Assembly: GCA_019347945.1 (NCBI GenBank)
Contig: JAHWKK010000024.1
Span: forward strand, 1 to 58,586
Origin: Acidobacteriota bacterium
Lineage (GTDB): Bacteria; Acidobacteriota; Thermoanaerobaculia; Gp7-AA8; JAHWKK01
Direction of reading: 5' to 3'
DNA length: 58,586 bases
In this document: positions 2,066-58,586 of the stretch, in pieces
Layout: each line of letters opens with the position of its first letter
Numbering within the stretch: position 1 is the stretch's first letter
Program-made: the position numbers and the translations under genes
Notes under the pieces: model-generated
Seen by the model: only the letters and a program-made list of their open reading frames with translations
What the model was told of the DNA's origin: nothing
Databases searched by the model: none

Positions 2066-4324
2066 ATGCCTCGCAGCCTCGTCTCGTATCTCGCCAGCCA
2101 GAAGCCGCGGTGGGATCCGATTCCCGAATCGGAGATGATGGCTGTGCTCGAGGAACGGTTCGAGGGAGGATGGCTGCTTCCGAGCCCCTACAAGATCTAT
2201 TCGCTCGACGAGGAAGCTCCTCCCCAGCTCGGATTTCCGGTCTCGCGCAGCGGCGTATTCGCCGGTCTCGCGGAACAGCTCGACGAGTGGGTGGACGTCT
2301 GGATCGCCGAACGGAGCGGCGAGCGGGTGTCCGGATCGGCGAATCTTCTCGAAGCGTACGCGAATCGCGTCGGCTCGATTTGCGAGAATGCGCTGCTCTC
2401 CAACTTTCTGGCCGACTACCACGGGATCTTCTGGCTCGCTCACTCCATCGACGTTTCGGCGGTGTTCTCGTCCATGACCCGAAAACTTGCGCGAGCGAGA
2501 GGAACCCTCGGCTCGACCGTCGGGAGGCTGCAGAGCGTCCTTTTCACCGAATGGTGCTCGGCCGTCCGCTCGAGTCTGAAACAGGCCGGTGAAAAACTCG
2601 ACGAGGTTCTCGGTGGTGAACAGCTTCGGGGAGTGGAGCTGTTCAATGTGCTCGCCGAGAATCAGCTGATCTTCACGACGCCGCGCCTCGAGCCGGATTT
2701 GAAGGGCGCGCGACTCCTGCTCGAGGGAGAGCGCGTGCGCAAGCCGGAGGCGGTCTTCGCGATGATGACCACTCTCGCCGAGCGGACCCGGAAACTGGCC
2801 GAGTCCGAGCCCGGTTTCGCCTGGTCGCTCGAAGCCCTCGGCTGGAAAGCCGCCGAGATCGGCGACTTTGCGATCCTCGACCGGCGGCTGAGGCGATTCG
2901 TCACAGGTCATCCCTCCTTCGGCAAAGCCCCCGATCGCGCGACGATGGCGACGCTCGAAAGGCTCGCCGATCGTCTCGTCTGCTTCGAGATTCTCGACCG
3001 GCTGCGCCGCGGCATCGTCTGGATGGAGGAAGCTCCCTCGGGAAAGATCCTCGCGGCCGGCGACGAAAACGAGTTCTTCTCCCGCTCGACGCGTCCCCTT
3101 CACTTCGAGCGAGCGGGGATCCTCGATCCCCTCGTCCATCGCTTCGGGATGGTCTACGACCTCACCGAATTCACACGAACTCTCGGGGAAATCGCCAAAG
3201 CGGGAGTTCGAAAAGAGATCCTTTCCTATCGCCAGATGTTTCTGTTTCAGAGGCGGCTCGATCGGATCACCACGGGGCACAGGCTCAACTTCGAGAAGTT
3301 TCTCGGCGACGGTGCGTTTTACACGACCCGGCGCGCTCTTCGTCTGATTCTCGCGGCGCTCGACCTGCAGAAGTTTTACGATCAGATGGCGGACCGCGGC
3401 TTCGTCTTCAATCGTGGGATCCGGATTGCGCTGAACTACGGCTACTACCGCCTTCTTCCGCTGAACGTAGGGACGGCAGAGCGCGAATCTCTGGTCGAGT
3501 TCTACGGACCCGGAATCGTCGAGCTGTCCCGGCTGACGACCGGGAAGGTCTCGCGCGACCTCGATGAACTGCATCAGTATCTGGTCAATCACGGTTACGA
3601 TCCCGATGAGGTTCGTCGATTCTTCGCGCCGCTTGAAAAAGCGACCCGGGCTCCCGCGCGGCAGCCTCGTCGTCATTTTGCGCACATCGACGAGCACGGC
3701 CAGCTGATCAACGAGGGGATCACCGCAACCTTTTCGCTCATGGAACAGCTCGATGAGGAGCTCGTCTCCGGCGGATCCGGCATCATGGAGTTCGATATGG
3801 CGGGAGCGAGGTGGGCAGGATTCGAGAGTGCTGGTCGTGTGATCGGGCTGCGTCCTCTCGGCAGGCTCAATCTCAAAGGGCTATCGAGCGTGGACGTTCT
3901 CGAGGTTGCGGGATTCGGCCAGGACGAAATCTCGAATACCACTCCCCGAACCGATACGCTTGCGGCCTCGATTCGGGAGATGACACTTCCGGTCACGCCC
4001 GCGGCAATCGAACAGACCGAGGATCTCGCGATCTGTGCCTTCTCGACCTCCGATGACAGAATGGTCGTGATCGGGCGCGTCTCGGATTCTTCGGATTCGA
4101 TTCTTCGTCCGGTCCGGCTGCCGGGTTCCCAGCTCGAGAGGCTGCTCGGGCTCGAATTTCCGCTCGGTCCCGAAGTGCTCGAATCGCGGCGAAGCTCGCT
4201 CGTACAACTCTACGCGAGCCTGTCGGATACCGACGAGAGATCGGATCTGCCGCTGGGACCGTTGCGCCTTCGCGAGGATTTCCACGCGTTCGTCCTCGGC
4301 TCTCCGGTCAGGGAGCTCCATTGA
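2066..4324 (+). CDS. Large protein with divergent class III nucleotidyl-cyclase-like segment
   Basis: A 752-residue soluble protein without signal peptide or membrane segment. The family is not recognised by name. The middle (about 355-510) resembles a class III cyclase catalytic domain: VYDLTEFT holds Asp365 where the first metal-binding Asp sits, FEKFLGDGAF holds Asp415 as the second, and a later RIALNYGYYR segment resembles the 'GIHxG' strand, followed by EFYGPGIVELSRL in place of the usual GxxVNxAARL. The 50-residue Asp-Asp spacing is close to that of real cyclases (about 44). The adenine-selecting Lys/Asp pair is not evident, so catalysis is doubtful. The N-terminal 340 residues are helical-looking, and the C-terminal 200 (about 555-752) read as a separate domain of beta-type sequence. 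The stop overlaps the purC start by 4 nt. Confidence 0.6.
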   Translation: MPRSLVSYLASQKPRWDPIPESEMMAVLEERFEGGWLLPSPYKIYSLDEEAPPQLGFPVSRSGVFAGLAEQLDEWVDVWIAERSGERVSGSANLLEAYANRVGSICENALLSNFLADYHGIFWLAHSIDVSAVFSSMTRKLARARGTLGSTVGRLQSVLFTEWCSAVRSSLKQAGEKLDEVLGGEQLRGVELFNVLAENQLIFTTPRLEPDLKGARLLLEGERVRKPEAVFAMMTTLAERTRKLAESEPGFAWSLEALGWKAAEIGDFAILDRRLRRFVTGHPSFGKAPDRATMATLERLADRLVCFEILDRLRRGIVWMEEAPSGKILAAGDENEFFSRSTRPLHFERAGILDPLVHRFGMVYDLTEFTRTLGEIAKAGVRKEILSYRQMFLFQRRLDRITTGHRLNFEKFLGDGAFYTTRRALRLILAALDLQKFYDQMADRGFVFNRGIRIALNYGYYRLLPLNVGTAERESLVEFYGPGIVELSRLTTGKVSRDLDELHQYLVNHGYDPDEVRRFFAPLEKATRAPARQPRRHFAHIDEHGQLINEGITATFSLMEQLDEELVSGGSGIMEFDMAGARWAGFESAGRVIGLRPLGRLNLKGLSSVDVLEVAGFGQDEISNTTPRTDTLAASIREMTLPVTPAAIEQTEDLAICAFSTSDDRMVVIGRVSDSSDSILRPVRLPGSQLERLLGLEFPLGPEVLESRRSSLVQLYASLSDTDERSDLPLGPLRLREDFHAFVLGSPVRELH

Positions 4325-5220
4325 GCTCACGTGCTCCGAGCGCGCTCACGTCGACGTCGCTCCCGCTGCGAATGCTTCGGCGAGGAAAGGTTCGCGACGT
4401 CTATGACATCGGCGAGGATCTGCTGCTCATCGTCGCGACCGACAGGATCTCGGCATTCGACACGATTCTCGAGCCGGGGATTCCGGGGAAGGGAATCATC
4501 CTGACGCAGATGTCGAACTTCTGGTTCGAGCGCTTTTCCGATACGTGGGTCAACCATCTCGTCGAAACCGACTTCGAGCAATTTCCTCCCGAGCTTCGAC
4601 GATTTCCCGAGCTGCGAGACCGGAGCGTCATCGCGAAGAAATGCGATGTGATTCCGGTCGAGTGCGTCGCGAGGGGTTACCTGATCGGCTCCGGCTGGAA
4701 GGACTACCAGGCCGAGGGCACGGTCTGCGGGATCGAATTGCCGAAGGGTCTTCGGATGGCGGATGCGCTTCCTGAGCCGATTTTCACACCGGCGACGAAG
4801 GCCGAGACCGGGCACGACGAGAACATCGATTTCGAAACGGTTGCAAATCTCGTCGGCGAGGAGACTGCGACGACGCTGCGCGACATGACGCTTTCGCTTT
4901 ACTCGCGCGCGTCGAAGCTCGCGCTCGAGCGAGGCATCATCATCGCGGATACGAAGATCGAGGTCGGGCTGTTGGACGGCCGGCTCGTCTGGATCGACGA
5001 AGCGCTCACGCCCGATTCGTCACGCTTCTGGCCCCTCGAGAGCTATCGCCCCGGCGTGTCTCCCCCTTCATTCGACAAGCAATACGTCCGCGATTATCTC
5101 GAAACGACCGGCTGGGACAAAGTATCTCCCGCTCCGCCCCTCCCCGAAGACGTCGTTGCCGGAACCGCGGCCCGATATCGCGAGGCGTGGGAAAGGCTGA
5201 CGAAGAGGTTGGAGGTTTGA
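4321..5220 (+). CDS. purC: SAICAR synthase (phosphoribosylaminoimidazole-succinocarboxamide synthase)
   Basis: PurC joins aspartate to CAIR in de novo purine synthesis using ATP. The 299 residues match the long, yeast Ade1-like form rather than the roughly 240-residue E. coli form. Visible motifs are RGKVRDVYDIG near the N-terminus, ATDRISAFD, GYLIGSGWKDYQ, and SFDKQYVRDYLETTGWDK near the C-terminus. The start is TTG 4321, overlapping the upstream stop as TTGA; a leader of about 15 residues precedes the conserved core. The last codons and stop lie inside the first arm of an AGGTTGG/AGGTTTG array, so the terminal residues (RLEV) come from repeat DNA. Confidence 0.95.
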   Translation: MSSRAPSALTSTSLPLRMLRRGKVRDVYDIGEDLLLIVATDRISAFDTILEPGIPGKGIILTQMSNFWFERFSDTWVNHLVETDFEQFPPELRRFPELRDRSVIAKKCDVIPVECVARGYLIGSGWKDYQAEGTVCGIELPKGLRMADALPEPIFTPATKAETGHDENIDFETVANLVGEETATTLRDMTLSLYSRASKLALERGIIIADTKIEVGLLDGRLVWIDEALTPDSSRFWPLESYRPGVSPPSFDKQYVRDYLETTGWDKVSPAPPLPEDVVAGTAARYREAWERLTKRLEV

Positions 5221-6472: not shown

Positions 6473-7471
6473 CTACCGGTTCAACGCGACGACGACGCGA
6501 CCGAGGGCATGGCCAGCGACGATGCCGCGGCATTCGCCGGGGACCTCTTCGAGCTCGACCGTGCGCGAATGGATGCGGCTCAGCACGTCCCGATCGCAGA
6601 TGCTCGCGAGCCGTTTCCAGGCGACGCGCCGTCTCGGATTGGGACAGGTGTTCGAGTCGACACCGGCGAGTGTCACTCCTCGCAGAATGAAGGGGAGGAC
6701 GGTGGTGCGGAGCTCCATCCCGGCGGCATTGCCGCAGGCGGCGATCGTGCCATGCGTTTCGGTCTGGGCGAGCAGTCTCGCGAGCGGCTCGCCTCCGACG
6801 GTGTCGACACCGGCGCTCCACTTCGCCTTTTCCAGCGGCTGCTCGCGGCCGCTCGTGAGATGTTCCCGTGGTTCGACGCTTGCGGCGCCGAGCTCGGTCA
6901 GGTAGGTGATGGCGGTCTTCTTGCCAGAGATTGCGGTGACTTCATATCCGAGTCTCGAGAGGATTGCGACGGCGAAACTGCCGACACCGCCGCTGGCGCC
7001 GGTGACGACGACATCCCGGGCGGTGCCTGGATTGAGCCCGTGCTCTTCGAGGGTCATCACGGCGAGCATCGCGGTATAGCCGGCGGTTCCGATGATCATC
7101 GCATCGAGAGGTGACAGACTCTCGGGTAACGGGAGGAGCCAGTCGCTGCGGACGCGGGCGCGCTCGGAGAATCCTCCCCAGTGCGACTCCCCGAGACCCC
7201 ATCCCGTCTGAAGGACGCGATCTCCGTCGCGGAAGCGGGGAGAACTGCTCTGTGCGACCGTTCCGGCGAGATCGATTCCGGGTACGAACGGGAAGTCTCC
7301 ACGAATCACCCGCCCCGCGCCGGTGACCGCCAGCCCATCCTTGTAGTTGATGCTCGAGTAAGCGACGTCGATCGTCACGTCTCCCTCGGGGAGCTGGTCG
7401 TCGTCGATTTTCACGACTCCGGCACTCATTCCTTCGGGTTCGGCGGGCTCGATCATGAGGGCTCGAAACAT
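6473..7471 (-). CDS. acuI: AcuI/YhdH-type quinone oxidoreductase (acrylyl-CoA reductase family)
   Basis: A 332-residue medium-chain dehydrogenase/reductase without structural zinc. YSSINYKDGLAVTG, PGIDLAGTV and GWGLGESHWGGFSE are signatures of the AcuI/YhdH branch, whose characterised members reduce acrylyl-CoA with NADPH. VVVTGASGGVGS (about residues 153-164) is the Rossmann nucleotide-binding loop. The length is normal for the family. The stop faces the aldo/keto reductase gene. The start ATG at 7471 has no Shine-Dalgarno sequence but has TAGAAT 7 nt upstream, suggesting a leaderless message. The exact substrate is inferred from family membership only. Confidence 0.88.
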   Translation of the reverse strand: MFRALMIEPAEPEGMSAGVVKIDDDQLPEGDVTIDVAYSSINYKDGLAVTGAGRVIRGDFPFVPGIDLAGTVAQSSSPRFRDGDRVLQTGWGLGESHWGGFSERARVRSDWLLPLPESLSPLDAMIIGTAGYTAMLAVMTLEEHGLNPGTARDVVVTGASGGVGSFAVAILSRLGYEVTAISGKKTAITYLTELGAASVEPREHLTSGREQPLEKAKWSAGVDTVGGEPLARLLAQTETHGTIAACGNAAGMELRTTVLPFILRGVTLAGVDSNTCPNPRRRVAWKRLASICDRDVLSRIHSRTVELEEVPGECRGIVAGHALGRVVVALNR

Positions 7472-7478
7472 GAGCGGG

Positions 7479-7484
7479 ATTCTA
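7479..7484 (-). promoter_or_regulatory. Putative -10 (TAGAAT) of a leaderless acuI transcript
   Basis: On the minus strand TAGAAT is followed by CCCGCTC and then ATG, 7 nt apart. No Shine-Dalgarno sequence is seen. It belongs to the same pattern as at selD, 2066, 24098 and others. Confidence 0.4.
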
Positions 7485-7516
7485 TCGTCGAAATGACTTC
7501 ATAAAAGATCCGGCAG

Positions 7517-8371
7517 TCATGTTCCTGAATGACCCTCCGGGGAGTGTGGCCGAGCTCGGAGCTGCGCCACGATTAGATCCTGATAGCTGACAGTGTCCGG
7601 CGTGCAGTCCCAGGCGCCGTCGCGGATCTCGAATCGAGCGAATCGGCCGCGTATCGTCGCTTCGAGAGTATCGCGATGCACGCCGATGGCGGATTCCGGT
7701 ACCCGGTCATTGGTCGAACGATGGCTGTCGTCTAGCCGGTAGCGAAATTGGGGGGCGTTCGGGCAGGACTTCGCCTTCTCGATTCGGTCTTCCGTCAGCA
7801 GGTAGTGCGTCATGACCAGCCGGCCCCCCGGTCGAAGGACTCGTCGAATCTCGTCGAGACATGCGATGGCATCGTGCGGTCTGAGATGGGTGAAGAGGCT
7901 GAATGCGAGAACGACGTCGACCGATTCGTCGAGAACGGGAATCGAGAACGACTCAGAATTGCCAGTAGCGTCGGGATGGTAGTACGCATTCGGAACATCC
8001 AGGTGGAAGAAGTCGAATCGCGGATTGATGGCTCCGATCGAGCTGCGGCACCATCGGATGGCTTCCGAATCTACGTCGACACCGAGGTAGCTACCATCGG
8101 TGATGATCCGGGCGAGAGGGATCGTGGCCCGTCCCCAGCCGCATCCCCAGTCGACAACGTGGCTTCCTGAATCGACCTCGCCGAAACGCACCGCAAGATC
8201 GGCGAGCTTCCGGCCTACCGGCTCGAAATCTCCAGCTCCGACGATGGCTCTCTTTCGACGAGGAGGCAGTCCGTACTCGGGGCGCGCACGAAACAGGTCT
8301 GCCGCGTCAGAGAACCACGCTCTTCCGTAAAGCCGAAGCCATCGAATACGGTCGCGTATCCGGCTGATCAT
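7517..8371 (-). CDS. Class I SAM-dependent methyltransferase
   Basis: A 284-residue protein with a Methyltransf_11/25-type core. Motif I is VVDWGCGWGRATIPLA, followed by YLGVDVDSEAIRWC with the acidic residue that binds the SAM ribose, and the post-II segment VDVVLAFSLFTHL. LDEIRRVLRPGGRLVMTHY matches motif III. The N-terminal 60 residues are basic and likely a substrate or lid region. The gene begins 10 nt after the oligopeptidase B stop on the same strand, so co-transcription is likely. The substrate is not predictable from sequence. Confidence 0.85.
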   Translation of the reverse strand: MISRIRDRIRWLRLYGRAWFSDAADLFRARPEYGLPPRRKRAIVGAGDFEPVGRKLADLAVRFGEVDSGSHVVDWGCGWGRATIPLARIITDGSYLGVDVDSEAIRWCRSSIGAINPRFDFFHLDVPNAYYHPDATGNSESFSIPVLDESVDVVLAFSLFTHLRPHDAIACLDEIRRVLRPGGRLVMTHYLLTEDRIEKAKSCPNAPQFRYRLDDSHRSTNDRVPESAIGVHRDTLEATIRGRFARFEIRDGAWDCTPDTVSYQDLIVAQLRARPHSPEGHSGT

Positions 8372-8381
8372 GCCGAACCTC

Positions 8382-10478
8382 TCACGCCAGACCGGCCTGA
8401 TCGAGGAGGAACGCGTACATCAGCGCCGTTTCGCGATGACGCCTGAAGCGTCCCGTCGTGCCGCTGTGCCCCGCCTCCATGTTCGTGTGAAGGAGCACGT
8501 CGTTCTCGTCCGTCTTCAGATCTCGCAATCGAAGCACCCACTTGGTGGGCTCCCAGAACTGCACCTGCGAGTCGTGCAGGCCCGACATCACCAGCATTGC
8601 CGGATAGTCCTGCGGCCGGACGTTGTCGTACGGCGAGTAGGAGAGGATGTAGTCGAAGAAGGCTCGCTCGTTCGGATTTCCCCACTCGTCGTACTCGCCC
8701 GTGGTCAGCGGAATCGACGGATCGAGCATCGTCGTCACGACGTCGACGAACGGTACCGAAGCGACCGCTCCCTTCCAGAGATCAGGCCGCATGTTGACGA
8801 CTGCACCGACCAGAAGCCCCCCGGCGCTGCCGCCGAAGGCGAACAGCCGCTCCGGATCGGCCCACCTCTCCGCGACGAGAAACTCGGCAACGTCGATGAA
8901 GTCGGTGAAGGTGTTCTTCTTCGAGAGCAGCTTTCCCGACTCATACCATTCGCGGCCGAGCTCTTGCCCTCCTCGTATGTGCGCGATCGCATAGACGAAC
9001 CCGCGATCGACGAGGCTCAGCCGCGGCGAGGCGAAGTCGGGGTCCATCGAAAGCCCGTACGAGCCGTAGCCGTACAGAAGCAGCGGGTTCGTACCGTCCG
9101 GCTCGACCCCTTCACGGTAGAGGATCGAGACCGGAATCCGCGTGCCGTCGCGCGCGGTCGCCCAGAGCCTTTCGGTCGCGTAGCGGTTGCAGTCGAATCC
9201 GCCACCCACCTCGTCGCGTTTCAGCAGCGTCTTCGTCCGCGCGTTCATGTCCCACTCGTAGACCGACCATGGAGTCGTCATCGAGCTGTAGTTGAATCGC
9301 AGGTTTTCGGTGTCGAGCTCGGGATTCTCTCCGAGGAAGGCGACGTAGGCCGGCTCGTCGAGCTCGATCTCGTGATCCTGGTCGCCCTCCCAGCGGCGAA
9401 CGCGAAGCCGCGTCAGCCCGGCGGTCCGCTCGGCGATCACCAGATGATCGCGGAAAACCTCGATGTCCTCGACGAGCGTCTCGTCGCGATGGGGGATCAC
9501 TTCGACCCAGTTCTCCCGGCCGGGCGCCGCGACGGGTGCCTTCATCACCCGGAAGTTTCGCGCATCCCAGTTTGTGCGGATGTAGAAATGATCCCCGAAG
9601 TGCTCGACTGAATACTCGTGGCCGCGATCGCGCGGCTCGAGAATCCGGAGCGGTCCCGTCGGATTGCTCGCATCGAGATAGCGGTATTCGTCGGTCAGGG
9701 TCTGCGAAGAGCCGATGACGATGAAGCTTCGCGAGCGCGTCGTGAAGACGAAGGTCGAGAAGGTCTCGTCGGTCTCCTCGTACACGAGAAGGTCTTCTGC
9801 GGCGTCCGTACCGAGGGTGTGGCGGTAGATTCGATCCCACCGGAGCGTGTCGGGATTCTGCCGGCTGTAGAAGAGGGACCGGTTGTCGGTGGCCCACGCG
9901 ATGTTGCCGGTGGTGGCGGGGATCACCTCGTCGAGAAATTCGCCGGTCTCGAGATTCCGGAAACGAATCTCGTAGAAGCGTCGGCCGACAGTGTCCACAG
10001 CGAAGGCGAGGGTGTCGTTCCCGGAGCTGACCGCGAGCGCTCCGACCGAATAGTACTCGTGGCCGGCAGCCAGCACGTTGACGTCGAGCATGACCTGTTC
10101 GGGCGCATCGGGCAAATCGAGGCGCCGGAGGTGGACCGGATACTCGCGTCCCGTTTCGAATCGGTGGTGGTACCAGTAGCCGTTGAGCCGCCAGGGTACT
10201 GACTGGTCCTGCTGGGGGATGCGCGCCACGATCTCGTCGAAGATCGTCTGCTGGAGATCCTCGGTGTGGCGGAGCTTTTCCTTCGTGTAGGCATTTTCCG
10301 CATGGAGGTGGGCGATGACGGCCGGATCGTCGCGATCGCGCAGCCAGTAGTAGTCATCCGCTCGGACGGAATCGTGTATTTCGAGCCGGTGAGAACGCTT
10401 ATCGGGTCTCGGCGGGGCCGGGATTGGAAGTGTTTCGGTCGCTTGATTCAAACTCGGCGTCGTACCTTTCGGGTTCAT
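8382..10478 (-). CDS. ptrB: Oligopeptidase B (S9A serine peptidase)
   Basis: A 698-residue prolyl-oligopeptidase-family enzyme that cleaves short peptides after basic residues. The N-terminal part (to about 410) is the seven-bladed propeller, starting with the conserved RADDYYWLRDR. The C-terminal alpha/beta-hydrolase domain has the nucleophile in FAFGGSAGGLLVGAV, the Asp in SGLHDSQVQFWEP and the His in EAGHSG. YGYGSYGLSMDPDF is also diagnostic. No signal peptide is apparent, so it is cytoplasmic. The ATG at 10478 lies inside the upstream lipoprotein gene (80-nt overlap); the only other early in-frame start is TTG at about 10451, which would still overlap. Confidence 0.95.
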   Translation of the reverse strand: MNPKGTTPSLNQATETLPIPAPPRPDKRSHRLEIHDSVRADDYYWLRDRDDPAVIAHLHAENAYTKEKLRHTEDLQQTIFDEIVARIPQQDQSVPWRLNGYWYHHRFETGREYPVHLRRLDLPDAPEQVMLDVNVLAAGHEYYSVGALAVSSGNDTLAFAVDTVGRRFYEIRFRNLETGEFLDEVIPATTGNIAWATDNRSLFYSRQNPDTLRWDRIYRHTLGTDAAEDLLVYEETDETFSTFVFTTRSRSFIVIGSSQTLTDEYRYLDASNPTGPLRILEPRDRGHEYSVEHFGDHFYIRTNWDARNFRVMKAPVAAPGRENWVEVIPHRDETLVEDIEVFRDHLVIAERTAGLTRLRVRRWEGDQDHEIELDEPAYVAFLGENPELDTENLRFNYSSMTTPWSVYEWDMNARTKTLLKRDEVGGGFDCNRYATERLWATARDGTRIPVSILYREGVEPDGTNPLLLYGYGSYGLSMDPDFASPRLSLVDRGFVYAIAHIRGGQELGREWYESGKLLSKKNTFTDFIDVAEFLVAERWADPERLFAFGGSAGGLLVGAVVNMRPDLWKGAVASVPFVDVVTTMLDPSIPLTTGEYDEWGNPNERAFFDYILSYSPYDNVRPQDYPAMLVMSGLHDSQVQFWEPTKWVLRLRDLKTDENDVLLHTNMEAGHSGTTGRFRRHRETALMYAFLLDQAGLA

Positions 10479-10808: not shown

Positions 10809-12443
10809 ATGAAGACGAGGATCATTGCGATCGCGCTGACGATGGTGTCGGCGGCGGCCGCCGGACAGGCCCAGGAGATACCGGAACCATCGGGGGAGGG
10901 CCCCGCGATCCAGCTTTCGCTCGACGAGGCAATCAGCCGGGCCGCCCGGGCGAATCTGGGAGTCCAGATCCAGGATTTCCAGTACATGGAAGCCCGGCAG
11001 CGACTGAAAGGATCGGAAGGTCCGTTCGACTGGTTCACGACTGCTCTGGTTCAGACGAGTACGGACGAAACGATTCCTCAGTCCGAATTCGACGCCTCCC
11101 TCGAAGAGCAGGATCTTTTGCGTCTCGGAGTGTCGCAACTGCTCCCGACGGGTGGAAGTTACAACGTGGGATTCACGACTGTCGAACGATCGACCAACAG
11201 CCGGTTCTCACGGTTCGATCCGGTCTTTTTCAGCGGGCTCGACTTCAACTTCACACAACCGCTGTTTCGTGATTTCGGGGTCGACGTCACGACGCGCAAT
11301 ATCCGCATCGCCCGGAACAACCTCGGCATCAGCCGCGAGGAGTTTCGGAGGGCGATGATCGAGACCGTTCTGAGCGTGGAGCAGGCTTACTACGATCTGA
11401 TCTTCGCCAGACAGAATCTCGAAGTCCGGCGTCAGTCGCTCGGGCTCGCTCGTGACCAGGAGCGGATTACCCAGATCCGGATCGACGTCGGGGCCTCGGC
11501 TCCGCTCGACATCCTGCAGCCTAGGGTTGCCGTCGCCACCCGGCAGGAGGAGATCATCGTCGCCGAGGCCTCCGTTCGTGATGCCGAGGACCGGTTGCGG
11601 ACCCTGATGAACCTGCCGGCCGACCAGTGGGCCAGCGAGATCATCCCCACCGAGGAGCTCGAAGTTCACGACGTCGATCTCGATACGGTCAGCGCAGTCG
11701 CTCTCGCCTGGGAGCTCAGGCCGGAGGTGCGGCAGTCCGAGCTGCAGACCGCGAGCAGCGAGATCGGATATCGATTCGCCCGGAATCAGGTATTGCCGCA
11801 GGTCGACCTTCAGATCGACTACGGACTCACCGGCGTGTCGGGTACCGAGCTCGAACGCGATCCCGTTACCGGAGAGGTCATCAACAGGCTTCCCGGCGGA
11901 GGGCTCGGAGATGCCGTGGACCAGGTACTCGGATTCGATCTTCCCGGGTGGACCGTGGGGGTGAACTTCGCGATGCCGGTCCGGAACATCGGAGCTCGGG
12001 CGGAAGCGCGACGGGCCGAGCTGGAAATGCGAAGACTCGCTCAGTCGGAGGAGCAGCTGCGGCAGGACATCGCGGTCGAGGTGAGACAGGCTCTTCGCGA
12101 CATCGAGCGCTTCGAGAGGCAGATCGAGGCGGCGCGTGCGGCCCGGGAAGCGGCCGAGCAGAACGTCGATGCCGAAAGGAAGCGCTTCGACAACGGCATG
12201 ACGACGAACTTCAACGTCCTCGAGGTCCAGCAGGAGCTCGCCGATGCGCGCAGTCGCGAGATCGCCGCGCAGGTGAACTTCCAGAAGGCAGTCTCGTTTT
12301 TCCATCGCTCCGTGGGTAATCTGCTCCAGTATCATGGGATCGAAGTCGATGAGCCCGAACTGGAAAAGGCACCGTTCTCGAGCTGGCAGCGGGTGAAGAT
12401 GCTCAATTACGGATTCTGGTCAGACGACTTCCAGGACGAGTAA
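10809..12443 (+). CDS. tolC: TolC-family outer membrane efflux protein
   Basis: A 544-residue outer-membrane channel. A signal peptide (MKTRIIAIALTMVSAAAAGQA) is followed by two OEP repeats with long amphipathic coiled-coil helices, for example about residues 180-270 (VLSVEQAYYDLIFARQNLEV) and 395-500 (AEARRAELEMRRLAQSEEQL). The LRPEVRQSELQ and LEVQQELADARS stretches are typical of the family. GAGGAGG ends 9 nt before the ATG. It heads an operon with a YIP1 protein, an adaptor and a MacB-type ABC transporter, so it is the exit duct of that pump. The substrate is unknown. Confidence 0.92.
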   Translation: MKTRIIAIALTMVSAAAAGQAQEIPEPSGEGPAIQLSLDEAISRAARANLGVQIQDFQYMEARQRLKGSEGPFDWFTTALVQTSTDETIPQSEFDASLEEQDLLRLGVSQLLPTGGSYNVGFTTVERSTNSRFSRFDPVFFSGLDFNFTQPLFRDFGVDVTTRNIRIARNNLGISREEFRRAMIETVLSVEQAYYDLIFARQNLEVRRQSLGLARDQERITQIRIDVGASAPLDILQPRVAVATRQEEIIVAEASVRDAEDRLRTLMNLPADQWASEIIPTEELEVHDVDLDTVSAVALAWELRPEVRQSELQTASSEIGYRFARNQVLPQVDLQIDYGLTGVSGTELERDPVTGEVINRLPGGGLGDAVDQVLGFDLPGWTVGVNFAMPVRNIGARAEARRAELEMRRLAQSEEQLRQDIAVEVRQALRDIERFERQIEAARAAREAAEQNVDAERKRFDNGMTTNFNVLEVQQELADARSREIAAQVNFQKAVSFFHRSVGNLLQYHGIEVDEPELEKAPFSSWQRVKMLNYGFWSDDFQDE

Positions 12444-17556: not shown

Positions 17557-19242
17557 GTGATCTGTATTCTTCATGGCTATCTGCTCGAGGGATCGGGCAG
17601 CAATCTCTGGACGAGATCGGTCATCGAAGCGCTCGTTCGGCAGGGAAGGACCGTGCATCTCCTGGCGCAGGAGAACCACCCCGAGATCTATCCGTTCATC
17701 CGGAAGGCGATCCGCTATCGTCCCGACGGTTCGGTCGAGACGTTTCACGAAGCTCCCGCGGGCGAGGGGGGATGTGTCCTTCACAAGCCTGTGCTCGGCG
17801 ACCTCCTCCCCGTGTATGTCCGCGATCGATACGAAGAATTCGACCGCGTGATTCCGCTCGTCGAGCTCGAGACATACGAGATCGAGAAGTACGTCGAAAC
17901 GAATGTCGAGGTGCTGAGACGCGTCGTGCGCGAGCACAAAATCTCGGCAATGCATGCGAACCACGCTGTGATGATGTCCGTCGTGGCGGAACGGGTGAGC
18001 GGCGAGACCGGTGTTCCCTTCGCGATCATGCCGCACGGCTCGGGGCTCGAGTATGCCGTGAGACCCGATCCCCGAATGAAGCGCTACGCGGAAAGCGCGT
18101 TCGCGGCCGCCTCACGTGTCTTCGTCATCGGGGACGAGATGCAGGGGCGGGTTCTCGAGCTGCTCGGAAATGTCGAGGGGCTCGAGGAAAAACTCACCCG
18201 TCTGCCTCTCGGCGTCGATACGTCGAAATTCGAGCCGGTAGAGCCGTCGGAACGAAAGGCGTCGATTCGACGGCTCTACGAGGGACTTCAGACGGTTGTG
18301 CGGGGCCGGCCCGCCGACGCAGCGGAGAGGATGCGCCACGCGGTCGCTTCCGCGACGAGCGCCGAGGAGATCGCGCGGTCCGCGTCTGCGATCGCGACTT
18401 ACGAGCTCAAGAAGCCCGACGAAGACATCGAGGCCCGGCTCGAGTCGATAGACTGGACAAGGGACGAAGTCGCCCTCTTCGTCGGACGGCTCATCGCGGC
18501 GAAGGGGCCGCAGAACGTGATCGCCGCACTCCCTTTCGTTTTTCGGGACCATCCCGGTTTGCGGCTCATCCTGATCGGTCACGGTCCGCTGCGCGAGCCG
18601 CTCGAAGCGATGGTCCTCGCGATGCATCAGGGGAGGCGCGACCTTTTCGGTTCGATCGTCGAGATGGGCCGGCGGTTCGAAGAGCATCCCGAAGGTTCCG
18701 GAGGCGATCTCACATTTCACGAGATCGCGTCATACCTGCGAAGCCTCGAGGAGGAGGGAAGGCTCGAGGAGTGGTGGGACGCGTGTCGCGAGCATCTCTT
18801 GCCCGAACGAATCATTTTTGGTGGCTATCTCACGCATGCCGAGCTCCGGTACCTCTTCGGATGCGCGGACGTAGCCATTTTCCCCTCGCTCGTGAAGGAA
18901 GCCGGACCGCTCGTTTTCCTCGAGGCGATGGCCTCGGGGATTTTCCCCCTCGGTACCTACTTCGGAGGGATGAAGGCGAGCATCGACGCGACCCGGGAGC
19001 TCATTGGCGACGATGGCTGGAAAAGGATGCAGATCGACCCGGAACCATCGCGCGTCGTCGGCTCGATCGCGTCCCAGCTTCCGCTCGCCCTCGAGTGCAG
19101 CCGCCACTACAGCCGCGATCTCCGCTCGATTGCCGTCGAGCACCACGACTGGCGGAACGTTGCCGAGACTCTTAGCGAGACGCTGGGAGAAGCAGGAATC
19201 AGGAAACAGGATTCAGGATCCAGGGGGTGTGAAGAAGAGTGA
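17557..19242 (+). CDS. GT4-family glycosyltransferase
   Basis: A 561-residue GT-B retaining glycosyltransferase, probably acting on exopolysaccharide, LPS or glycolipid acceptors; donor unknown. MICILHGYLLEGSGSN at the N-terminus holds the Gly-rich loop of the first Rossmann half. The second half has VALFVGRLIAAKGPQNVIAAL, LILIGHGPL and the EX7E motif in KEAGPLVFLEAMASG. An insertion of roughly 80 residues (about 240-300) between the halves makes it longer than usual. The GTG start at 17557 has GGAGG 5 nt upstream. The last 14 residues (IRKQDSGSRGCEEE) are encoded by a CAGGATT array, so the native C-terminus has been replaced or extended by repeat DNA. Confidence 0.88.
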   Translation: MICILHGYLLEGSGSNLWTRSVIEALVRQGRTVHLLAQENHPEIYPFIRKAIRYRPDGSVETFHEAPAGEGGCVLHKPVLGDLLPVYVRDRYEEFDRVIPLVELETYEIEKYVETNVEVLRRVVREHKISAMHANHAVMMSVVAERVSGETGVPFAIMPHGSGLEYAVRPDPRMKRYAESAFAAASRVFVIGDEMQGRVLELLGNVEGLEEKLTRLPLGVDTSKFEPVEPSERKASIRRLYEGLQTVVRGRPADAAERMRHAVASATSAEEIARSASAIATYELKKPDEDIEARLESIDWTRDEVALFVGRLIAAKGPQNVIAALPFVFRDHPGLRLILIGHGPLREPLEAMVLAMHQGRRDLFGSIVEMGRRFEEHPEGSGGDLTFHEIASYLRSLEEEGRLEEWWDACREHLLPERIIFGGYLTHAELRYLFGCADVAIFPSLVKEAGPLVFLEAMASGIFPLGTYFGGMKASIDATRELIGDDGWKRMQIDPEPSRVVGSIASQLPLALECSRHYSRDLRSIAVEHHDWRNVAETLSETLGEAGIRKQDSGSRGCEEE

Positions 19243-19422
19243 AGAGTGAAGAGGTGAATCGGATAATTTCCCCGTTCCACGACCCGCTGCTCCTGTCCTA
19301 AATCCTAAATCCTACAATCCTAGAATCCTGGCTCCTGCATCCTGGCTCCTGCATCCTGGCTCCTGCATCCTGGCTCCTGAATCCTGACGCCTGGATCCTG
19401 ACCCCTGAATCCTGCTTCCTAG
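19192..19422 (+). repeat. Inverted heptamer arrays (CAGGATT arm, TCCTGGC arm)
   Basis: The left arm, 19192-19224, has about five CAGGAAT/CAGGATC units and lies inside the 3' end of the glycosyltransferase gene. The right arm, 19290-19422, has about eighteen C-rich units (CCTAAAT, CCTGGCT, CCTGCAT, CCTGAAT) and stops about 25 nt before the topoisomerase start. Within the right arm the 14-nt pair CCTGGCTCCTGCAT is repeated in tandem. No gene lies in 19243-19448. Confidence 0.88.
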
Positions 19423-48341: not shown

Positions 48342-48634
48342 GCAGGATTCAGGATTCAGGATCCAGGATCCAGGAAAAGCAGGAGCCAGGATTCAGGATC
48401 CAGGATTCAGGAAAAGCAGGATTCAGGATACTGAATTCTGTCCCTCCATAATGACCGCGATCGTCCTCATGACGCTGTTTCCCGAGGGCACAGGAACCGG
48501 AGAGTCGGAAGCCGGTGACGGCGTCGGTGATTTCAAAACCAAGCCTCGCCTCGCGGCGCGGTGCATGGAGTTTCGGTCCGTTCGAGCCGCCGCTTCTCGC
48601 TGGATCCTGGCTCCTGAATCCTGGCTCCTGCTTC
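48342..48634 (+). repeat. Inverted heptamer arrays between uvrD and a membrane-protein gene
   Basis: 48342-48430 has about a dozen CAGGATT/CAGGATC/CAGGAGC units with AAAAG interruptions. 48599-48634 has about five CCTGGCT/CCTGAAT units in reverse. The right array runs into the stop codon of the gene at 48633-48893. The 160 nt between them have no gene or terminator that I can see. Confidence 0.88.
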
Positions 48635-48910: not shown

Positions 48911-49138
48911 AAGCAGGATTCAGGAAGCAGGATTCAGGAGCCAGGGATGTGAGATTTGAGGAGAGGATATGAGGATGTGAGGTTGGAAAGCTTCACCCCC
49001 GTGTCATCCTTGAGGATGACGAGGTGAGAGATCGAGCGTACCGACTCGAATCTACCCTCTTCTTGCCCTGACCCCTGGATCCTGGCTCCTGAACCCTGCT
49101 TCTCCTGGATCCTGGCTCCTGAATCCTGGCTCCTGCTT
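48911..49138 (+). repeat. Inverted heptamer arrays between the membrane gene and dacA
   Basis: 48911-48947 has about five CAGGATT/CAGGAGC units, then a GATTTGAG/GGATATGA patch. 49065-49138 has about eight CCTGACC/CCTGGAT/CCTGGCT units whose last unit touches the dacA stop. A 7-bp GTCATCC/GGATGAC hairpin lies at 49003-49020. No gene is present. Confidence 0.85.
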
Positions 49139-50260
49139 CTAAAACGGCCAGATCCGGTCCCACGTCCTCGCGAACCATCCGGCGCGTTCGACGTCGCTGG
49201 CCGCGAGCGCGGGGGCCTTTGCCACAGGCTGACCGTCTTTCTTCACGATGATCCAGCCGACCTGTTGCCCCTTCCGGATCGGTGCGGTCGGGGTCGAGCC
49301 ACTCACCGAGACCTTGTAGCCGCTCCTGCCGTTTCGTTCGCTCAGGATTTTCACGTCCTCACCGGCGATCACTCCGACGACGTCGCGCGTTCCTCCGCGC
49401 ACCGGCACATTCGCGGCCATCGACTTTCCATTTGCCACCAGCGTTCGCTTTTCGTACTTGCGAAACGCCTCGTTGAAGAGTGCGGCCGCGCTGTCGAAGT
49501 TGTCCGCTTTGATCTTCGAGCCGACGACGACGGCGACGAGCTCGAGGTCTCCGCGCTTTGCGGAGGCAGTCACGCAGAATCCGGCCTTGTCGTGGAATCC
49601 GGTCTTGATGCCGGTCGCCTCGGGGTAATTGCGAATGAGGTGATTCGGGTTGTACATGATGAATTTGCCGTCGCGGAAGGGCATCTCCTGGGTCACGGCG
49701 AGCTTTTGCATCCTCGGATGCTTCATCAACTCCGCGCCGAGAATCGCCAGATCCCAGGGGCTGCTCATGTCGTCCTTCTCGCCACGGTCGGGAAGCCCGT
49801 GCGGGCTGTGAAACTCCGTTTCCTCGAGCCCCATCTCCTTCGCCTTGTCATTCATCATCTGGACGAAGTGCTCGCGACTGCCGCCGATTTTCTCGGCCAG
49901 AGCCATCGCGGCGTCATTGGCCGAGTGAACCATCGTCGCCGCGACGAGATCCTCGACGGAAAAGGTTTCGTTGTGCGCCAGGTAGACCTGCGAGCCTCCC
50001 ATCTTCGAGGCGTTCGCGCTCACGGTGACGGGAGTCGTCCAGTCGAGCCGGCCCGCCTCGATCTCCTCGAGAGTGATCAGGAGGGTCATCATCTTGGTCA
50101 TCGACGCGATCGGGACCATCGTGTGCGCGTTCTCCTCGAGCAGGACGGTCCGCGTTTCCGGTTCCATGACGATTGCGCCGGTGTAGGGGGGCGGCGCCTG
50201 CGCGAAGGCAGCTACCGCGGATATACAACTCACCACAAACGAGGTTAATCGCTTGATCAT
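49139..50260 (-). CDS. dacA: D-alanyl-D-alanine carboxypeptidase (PBP5/6 type)
   Basis: A 373-residue S11 peptidase that trims the pentapeptide D-Ala. A signal peptide (SFVVSCISAVAAFAQA) leads to the catalytic domain with SxxK as SMTK, SxN as SAN and KTG as ATGIKTGFHDKAGFC. A C-terminal beta domain (about 265-345) and an amphipathic end (FARTWDRIWPF) for membrane association fit PBP5. GGGAGG before the ATG is a ribosome binding site. The stop (TAG) is immediately followed on the coding strand by CAGGAGC repeat units. Confidence 0.95.
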   Translation of the reverse strand: MIKRLTSFVVSCISAVAAFAQAPPPYTGAIVMEPETRTVLLEENAHTMVPIASMTKMMTLLITLEEIEAGRLDWTTPVTVSANASKMGGSQVYLAHNETFSVEDLVAATMVHSANDAAMALAEKIGGSREHFVQMMNDKAKEMGLEETEFHSPHGLPDRGEKDDMSSPWDLAILGAELMKHPRMQKLAVTQEMPFRDGKFIMYNPNHLIRNYPEATGIKTGFHDKAGFCVTASAKRGDLELVAVVVGSKIKADNFDSAAALFNEAFRKYEKRTLVANGKSMAANVPVRGGTRDVVGVIAGEDVKILSERNGRSGYKVSVSGSTPTAPIRKGQQVGWIIVKKDGQPVAKAPALAASDVERAGWFARTWDRIWPF

Positions 50261-50621: not shown

Positions 50622-51746
50622 ATGGAACCGAAACTCACGCAGAGGCTCGACTGGAAAAGTCTCTGGAGACTCATCAGAGAGGCGTGGGCCGACTTCCGGG
50701 ACGACAACGCCCAGCAGTTCGCCGCTGCCGTGGCATTCTTCACGATTCTCTCGCTCGCTCCGCTCCTGATTCTCGCGATCGCCCTTGCCGGCATCTTCTA
50801 CGGACGGGAAGCCGCGCGAGGTGGAATCGTTGCCGAGCTCTCCCAGTACGTCGGGAATGAAGCTGCACGCGCGATCCAGTCTCTCGTGGCCAACGCCGGA
50901 AGCGGTGACGGCAGCGTTTTCGCCAGCGTCCTCGGGTTCGCTGCCCTCGCCTGGGGCGCCTCCCGGATCTTTCATCAGCTCCGGATCGCACTGAACGAGA
51001 TCCTCGACATCGAGGAGAAACAGCGAACCGGATTCGTTGCGGCAATTCGAGACAGGCTCGTCGCGATCGCCGGCGTGGTGGTGATCGGTCTGATTCTCCT
51101 TTCCGCCGTGGTGATCAATGCCGCGCTGTCCCGACTGAAAGACATCATCCCTTTCGATATCCCCGGCGGACCCTACCTCTGGCAGACGGTCAGCTTCGTT
51201 CTTTCGCTCGCTCTCGTCCTCCTGACCTTCACTCTCATCTTCCGCTACCTTCCGGACGAGCGGATTCCCTGGCGAGTCGCGGGGATCGGCGCGGCGTTCA
51301 CGACGGTTCTCTTCGTTCTCGGGCAGGTGCTGATCACCCTCTACCTCAGCATCAGCGACATCGGCTCGAGCTTTGGGGCCGGCGGTTCCCTGATCGTCCT
51401 CATCCTCTGGATCTACTACTCCTCTTCGATCTTTTTCTTCGGCGCTGAGCTGATGGAAGTCATCCAGAAGGGGGGCCCGGGGGCGAGCCGTATCAGGAGT
51501 CAGGAACCAGGAGCCAGGAGCCAGGAGCCAGGATTCAGGAGCCAGGAGACAGGAGACAAGGATTCAGGATCCAGCGAAAAACAGGATCGTGCGCCAGACC
51601 GCTCCTCCTCCGGACGAGTCGCGACTTTTGGCATCGCCGGAGCCACCGGCTGCCTCGGGCTCATCCTGGGCGGCGTCGCGACCGTCACCGGTGGGGCTTT
51701 GATGGCGATCCGTTCAATTCTCCGGCGCTTCTGGCGGCCCCGATGA
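50622..51746 (+). CDS. yihY: YihY/BrkB-family membrane protein with repeat-encoded insertion
   Basis: 374 residues. Six helices form the YihY core (about 1-290): FRDDNAQQFAAAVAFFTILSL is the signature N-terminal segment and WIYYSSSIFFFGAELMEVIQ the conserved last one. After residue 290 an array of CAGGAGC units is translated in frame (residues about 291-318) as 7-residue repeats RSQEPGA. It is followed by a Ser/Asp stretch and a further hydrophobic segment (about 335-362, GATGCLGLILGGVATVTGGALM). The array lacks stops, so the tail is still joined. The family was once misnamed RNase BN; its role is unresolved. No ribosome binding site is strong. Confidence 0.9.
   Translation: MEPKLTQRLDWKSLWRLIREAWADFRDDNAQQFAAAVAFFTILSLAPLLILAIALAGIFYGREAARGGIVAELSQYVGNEAARAIQSLVANAGSGDGSVFASVLGFAALAWGASRIFHQLRIALNEILDIEEKQRTGFVAAIRDRLVAIAGVVVIGLILLSAVVINAALSRLKDIIPFDIPGGPYLWQTVSFVLSLALVLLTFTLIFRYLPDERIPWRVAGIGAAFTTVLFVLGQVLITLYLSISDIGSSFGAGGSLIVLILWIYYSSSIFFFGAELMEVIQKGGPGASRIRSQEPGARSQEPGFRSQETGDKDSGSSEKQDRAPDRSSSGRVATFGIAGATGCLGLILGGVATVTGGALMAIRSILRRFWRPR
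51493..51575 (+). repeat. Heptamer array inside the yihY coding sequence
   Basis: About eleven CAGGAGC/CAGGAGT/CAGGAAC/CAGGATT units in frame. The unit is 7 nt, so three units make 21 nt and encode seven residues, giving the repeated RSQEPGA in the protein. It is the same family as the intergenic arrays, in the purine-rich orientation on the coding strand. Confidence 0.92.
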
Positions 51747-54408: not shown

Positions 54409-54637
54409 CAGGGATCAGGGATCAGGGATTAGGGATTAGGGATCAGGGATCAGGGATCAGGAGCCAGGATTCAGGATCCAGGAGCCAGGGTCTCCGGTCT
54501 GATGTAAAGGATGTCTCCGGCTGTTACCCCCTGACCCCTGATTCCTGCTTTTCCTGATCCCTAATGCCTGACCCGTGATCCCTGTCTCCTGGCTCCTGTC
54601 TCCTGAATCCTGTCTCCTGACCCCTAATCCCTGCTTC
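54409..54637 (+). repeat. Inverted heptamer arrays in the recN/yceD divergent spacer
   Basis: 54409-54491 has about eleven CAGGGAT/TAGGGAT/CAGGAGC/CAGGATT units. 54528-54637 has about fourteen CCTGATT/CCTGACC/CCTGGCT/CCTGTCT units in the opposite sense. The whole is a loose palindrome of about 230 nt between the two start codons. The 307-nt spacer has nothing else visible. Confidence 0.88.
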
Positions 54638-58432: not shown

Positions 58433-58586
58433 ACTCGTCATCCTGAGCCCGGCGAAGCGCGGGCGAAGGATCTTCTATGAGTAGGCCATGTCAAGCCCCC
58501 CGGGTTTTGTCTTTGTTTTTTTGTCAGCTCAACGAGCCGTCTCGGCTTCTTCTATACGCACTCGAGGTGCAGAGGGAGATCCTGAA
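58433..58586. other. Spacer with a widespread CGTCATCCTGAGC-type motif and a T-rich tract
   Basis: CGTCATCCTGAGCCCGGCGA ... GCGAAGGATCTTCT (58436-58476) resembles a short interspersed motif common to many bacterial genomes. After it, CATGTCAAGCCCCCCGGG is followed by a T-rich stretch, which could be the end of a mobile element continuing past the edge. No gene can be supported. Confidence 0.35.

Follow-up and report, generated by a model that had tools for sequence, protein, structure and literature searches.

The window, that is, the whole 58,586-nt stretch of an Acidobacteriota contig (JAHWKK010000024.1) analysed here, contains a yihY/brkB-type gene in which a 7-nt tandem repeat is read in frame. 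This raises the question of how repeat DNA came to lie inside a coding sequence, and whether the strand on which it reads has anything to do with being translated. The gene and its parts are arranged as follows.

50622-51746, plus strand: yihY/brkB-type gene, 374 aa, open ORF (PF03631, E 3.4e-49; TIGR00765 over cut-off)
50700-51470, plus strand: PF03631 core, residues 27-283 (family model match; 11 relatives align at 34-39% identity)
51494-51575, plus strand: degenerate CAGGANN heptamer array, in frame, residues ~291-318, within the YihY linker (TRF, lag-7)
51606-51743, plus strand: hydrophobic Gly-rich tail at the C-terminus, residues 329-374 (11 relatives have tails that align with it)

The array-bearing protein is a member of the YihY/BrkB family by both models, scoring 168.3 bits with PF03631 (cut-off 33.7) and 84.4 with TIGR00765 (cut-off 73.15), and the model-matched stretch stops before the linker and the tail. 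The first-pass annotation had described an intact core followed by a hydrophobic tail behind the array, and both parts of this description were borne out: PF03631 covers the core, TIGR00765 lies above its cut-off, the tail frame is open, and the tail reaches Kyte-Doolittle 19-mer values of up to 1.9.

The array itself was detected by TRF at 51494-51574 (period 7, 11.4 copies, 78% matches, consensus CAGGAGC). The lag-7 self-identity of 51493-51575 was 0.79, whereas 10,000 base shuffles reached 0.49 at most and 10,000 codon shuffles 0.52 at most. Together with the open ORF, this confirms that a heptamer array is read in frame within yihY. The in-frame reading of the CAGGANN array is IRSQEPGARSQEPGFRSQETG, and the array-encoded residues 291-318 are IRSQEPGARSQEPGFRSQETGDKDSGSS. 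The repeat is degenerate, and its longest pure run consists of three CAGGAGC units. Its mean ln relative codon usage against the genome is -1.37, while the worst 28-codon window of the core has -1.25; such a poor fit is expected for repeat DNA, not for a selected coding segment.

A search of genome contigs with the YihY protein found no named close relative, and the nearest relatives compared belong to the same order at 34-39% protein identity, with no same-family genome among them. Of 26 aligned relatives, the 11 that continue past the linker with a C-terminal block of 30 aa or more were used for the comparison of linker and tail. Their linkers measure 32-63 aa (52 aa here), have common sequence only in the first residues after the core, and are polar, like the RSQEPGA peptide; none of the 11 contains a heptamer peptide. 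Among the relative matches listed, nine extend beyond residue 355, crossing the linker to reach the tail. In a tail profile built from relatives, a weak test, this tail scored 7.5 bits and ranked third in a set of 1001 that contained 1000 shuffles, the best of which scored 8.5. We conclude that the repeat DNA occupies a freely evolving, already hypervariable linker segment between core and tail. The array had been called an insertion, which is unsupported, because the linker is hypervariable and within the length range of the relatives, and replacement or local growth fits equally.

The yihY array is probably ordinary repeat DNA of the heptamer family, now placed in frame within this hypervariable core-tail linker, where the protein seems to put up with it without needing it. 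Heptamer units may have been copied locally or have slipped to produce it, and it would have survived since CAGGANN lacks a sense-strand stop and the reading frame of the tail was preserved overall. The disordered linker would tolerate any mixture of Arg, Ser, Gln, Glu, Pro, Gly and Ala, and the array would be translated within the protein while serving no separate purpose. No sign of function of the RSQEPGA peptide was found in this analysis.

Other readings of the yihY array were weighed against this one. Heptanucleotide repeats are known contingency repeats in other systems, and since 7 is not a multiple of 3, a one-unit change in the yihY array would swap the tail; the other two frames after the array lose the hydrophobic helix and run to stops ~136 and ~68 codons past 51494. 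A phase-variation switch, in which gain or loss of one 7-nt unit toggles the hydrophobic tail while the YihY core is kept, is nevertheless unlikely, because at most three identical units are adjacent, which lowers slippage, because the arrays of this genome lie mostly in gaps, and because the authors who described GGGNATC heptamers judged phase variation unlikely for them in the available part of their text (PMC4692102). The peptide might instead be selected, for example as a linker spacer or a binding segment, as its frame, its polar character and the occurrence of RSQEPGA-type peptides inside ORFs of Moorena, Scytolyngbya and Nocardia loci (among the matches listed in a scan of other bacteria) would suggest; the poor codon usage of the array, its absence from the linkers of the 11 relatives, and the mostly non-coding nature of CAGGANN-family DNA in this genome make such selection highly improbable. 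Several genes here do end in or beside 3'-edge arrays, such as a desaturase-like ORF with the C-terminus RLEVGGWRLEVGGW, and yihY could likewise truly end in its array, the downstream tail being left untranslated by a frameshift or an assembly error. This is most improbable, given that the frame is open to 51746, that a hydrophobic Gly-rich tail occupies the corresponding position in relatives, and that the alignments reach the tail.

As proposed in the first-pass annotation, the yihY array is a member of a genome-wide repeat family. The pattern CAGGANNCAGGANNCAGGA gave 324 forward and 268 reverse matches in the genome (at most one mismatch), and the backwards control gave 0/0; the CAGGAGC-family unit lies mostly in gaps between genes. 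In a blind sample of 800,000 bases of the same genome, picked regardless of arrays, 24 CAGG-core arrays and 86 period-7 arrays of any unit were found, and 45 of the 237 gaps of at least 100 bp contain arrays. The commonest unit types in this sample are GTGAAGA, GGAGGTT, CAGGGAT, GCCGGTT, and GCCAGTT, with the GTGAAGA-type first. The G-rich strand of CAGGAGC, CAGGATT and CAGGGAT had been described as free of stop codons in all frames, which holds for these three units; as a general statement it fails in this genome, where the GTGAAGA-type and GAGGTTT families carry TGA on the G-rich strand.

Single heptamer arrays were observed near both ends of the contig (286-334 and 58234-58287 of the window); their expected partner arms would lie beyond the contig. 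A CGTCATCCTGAGCC...GAAGGATCTGG-type sequence recurs, partly as inverted copies, in gaps between heptamer arms (7329-7440 of locus L057, 7074-7200 of locus L053, and ~58440-58480 of the window), and looks like a putative small dispersed element. A reverse-transcriptase origin of the arrays was considered and rejected: PF00078 is absent from this 99.65%-complete genome, and was present in 6 of the 20 genomes searched. As the search covered PF00078 alone among polymerase families, this absence makes a template-copying mechanism less likely.

Within the stretches of this genome, 29 arrays were called inside genes, mostly as 3'-end overlaps, and only seven were flanked on each side by over 60 bp of ORF. 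The seven consist of two in a false 5' extension, three in C-rich sense in one ORF of locus L055, one near the end of a desaturase-like ORF, and the one in yihY. A candidate internal pair in a predicted gene (stretch C16, locus L093) was discarded, since it lies in a false 5' extension of what we take to be a thioredoxin-reductase-like ORF and hence is not internal. The L055 arrays (7136-7171, 7364-7404, and 9297-9325) belong to a giant ORF that spans 2563 codons or more, and the first two encode SWLLAPGS and DWLLAPGSWLLP. At 7035-8024 of locus L080 (stretch C11), a GGAGGTT array encodes the C-terminal part RLEVGGWRLEVGGWRS of an ORF presumed, from its motifs, to be desaturase-like. To persist inside a gene, an array needs a unit that is stop-free on the sense strand, and stop-free units act solely as a filter on which arrays survive there. 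In-gene arrays at 3' ends are G-sense. The yihY array lies close to the 3' end of yihY and is read with its G-rich strand as coding sense, and in polarity it matches the 3'-edge arrays.

This polarity was followed in arrays within 70 bp of a gene edge, using one gene caller trained on all stretches of this genome; the caller is home-made, so its 5' edges are approximate. In all 90 edge arrays (50 from the blind sample, 34 from targeted stretches, and six from the window), the G-rich strand reads away from the gene, at 59 3' edges and 31 5' edges alike. When the 70-bp limit was dropped, the G-rich strand of the blind sample read away from the nearest gene in 57 arrays and toward it in five. Of the CAGG-core arrays, 15/17 blind and 42/46 targeted ones lay nearer the outer edge. 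Array-free gap edges of the blind sample lacked this bias (3' edges, G>C 95 and C>G 69; 5' edges, G>C 93 and C>G 127).

One array (8702-8832 of locus L048) starts right where a tRNA-Leu gene ends at its 3' side, a gene that the caller does not recognise, and RNA gene edges are thus bordered too; this locus is one of the four targeted CAGG-core exceptions.

The first-pass annotation had linked the polarity to coding tolerance, in that G-rich orientation would exist because it keeps frames open. CAGGAGC, CAGGATT and CAGGGAT are indeed stop-free on that strand and the in-gene arrays at 3' ends are G-sense, but the link is contradicted on three sides. All 23 edge arrays that carry stop codons on the G-rich strand point away from the gene just the same; at the 31 5' edges the gene-sense strand is the C-rich one, so that an open G-rich frame cannot help there; and arrays in C-rich sense lie within ORFs. 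An open-frame origin of the polarity is accordingly extremely improbable, and the polarity is a property of how arrays sit in gaps, separate from coding tolerance.

Because the G-rich strand reads into the gap from each gene edge, a gap with two arms holds them as an inverted pair. Where neighbouring arrays of a gap lie on opposite strands, a G arm is followed by a C arm in 25/25 cases within the stretches of this genome, and all 11 gaps of the blind sample with both orientations start with the G-rich arm on the plus strand. Four such pairs lie in the window.

19193-19414, no strand assigned: inverted heptamer pair, its left arm overlapping the 3' end of the plus-strand ORF 17557-19242
48343-48630, no strand assigned: inverted heptamer pair between genes, with the G-rich (CAGG) arm on the left and the C-rich (CCTG) arm on the right, the usual arrangement
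48914-49135, no strand assigned: inverted heptamer pair in a gap, its right arm adjoining the stop codon of the minus-strand gene 49139-50260
54409-54619, no strand assigned: inverted heptamer pair between divergent genes, CAGGGAT/CAGGAGC left and CCTGTCT right

The pairs often span the gap from edge to edge, whatever the orientation of the genes (the four window pairs and loci L044-L060 of this genome). Arms of the same gap had a mean similarity of 0.65, compared with 0.55 between gaps, and 2 of 40 inverted pairs reached a similarity of at least 0.9; in the sister family, the values were 0.81 within and 0.65 between gaps.

We also considered a directional process in this lineage that writes heptamers of any unit, with the G-rich strand always growing away from the conserved gene edge. 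It might work, for example, through repeat addition at the 3' ends on both sides of a break, followed by joining. Were this true, inverted arms would be expected wherever a gap had been repaired, and the yihY array would represent an event of this type that survived inside a gene; we hold this process to be very unlikely.

Beyond this genome, four-unit arrays were found in 31 of the 396 genomes of a phylum sample, with a patchy distribution and most matches in the present genome. A pattern scan of other bacteria gave at least 120 stretches from many phyla, for which gene calls are rough. Among the matches listed (120 of at least 120 loci), six arrays are internal to coding sequences, three G-sense and three C-sense, and edge arrays point with the G-rich strand away from the gene in 30 cases and toward it in 14. 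Arrays of genome G001 within 70 bp of an edge, read inward, had G>C in 22, C>G in nine, and a tie in three, and edge arrays from targeted stretches of the sister family had G>C in 44, C>G in 13, and a tie in two. The G-rich-strand rule is weaker in the sister family. The orientation of the CAGG motif was rejected as the polarity rule, since CAGGACT pairs of the sister family (genomes G010 and G003) are reversed in 6/6 in-gap pairs; CAGGACT has G and C in equal number (2:2), and the reversed pairs therefore do not contradict the G-rich-strand rule. In locus L104 of genome G010, which belongs to the sister family, compact inverted heptamer arms separated by loops of 2-13 bases occupy many of the gaps (e.g., 4268-4355, 7664-7725, and 11729-11813), and these arms look like hairpins directly after genes.

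A literature search in a limited collection recognised no description of CAGGANN arrays, and the string RSQEPGA was absent from it. Other heptamer systems have been described. The TAACTGA heptamers of marine Beggiatoaceae are direct repeats of patchy taxonomy, reported for the most part from sites upstream of start codons; a single indirect repeat is on record. Their author argues that where copies can lie depends on the stops in the translated repeat, and that rare coding copies may be tolerated in places (MacGregor 2015, PMC4679880, in the portion available). Both these and the present arrays are patchy heptamer direct repeats. The unit differs, and the polarity rule found here is absent from that portion of the paper.

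Closer are the GGGNATC heptamers of Xanthomonas and Nostoc (Rehm et al. 2015, PMC4692102), for which the following refers to the accessible part of the article. They occur genome-wide and are mostly intergenic, as are the arrays here, and 7-11% of them at least partly overlap ORFs in two xanthomonads. Their G-rich strand is the coding strand downstream of stops and the non-coding strand upstream of starts, and they form convergent (inverted) pairs; the same edge placement and polarity were found in our 90/90 edge arrays, and the same convergence in our 25/25 pairs. A preference for four units and G-quadruplex formation are further marks of that class. The present arrays differ from the GGGNATC system, as far as that text describes it, in having several unit families (CAGGANN, GTGAAGA, GGAGGTT, GCCGGTT, and others) with one polarity, and in the internal in-frame copy in yihY. 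The intact GGG tract of GGGNATC is absent from most of these units, including CAGGANN in yihY and in most CAGG arrays, although CAGGGAT arrays do exist in the window; a canonical G-quadruplex is thus not expected for most arrays here.

The yihY array joins this published kind of edge-placed, polar, inverted-pair heptamers, with a rare internal coding copy. Alone, that copy is a small curiosity, a 7-nt repeat living in frame within a protein linker. The polarity in this genome is independent of both unit translatability and the GGG tract, and is the same at gene starts and ends. The polarity that was published but, in the part of PMC4692102 available, left unexplained is thereby narrowed to a gap-symmetric cause, such as the formation of inverted pairs, over translation or quadruplexes alone.
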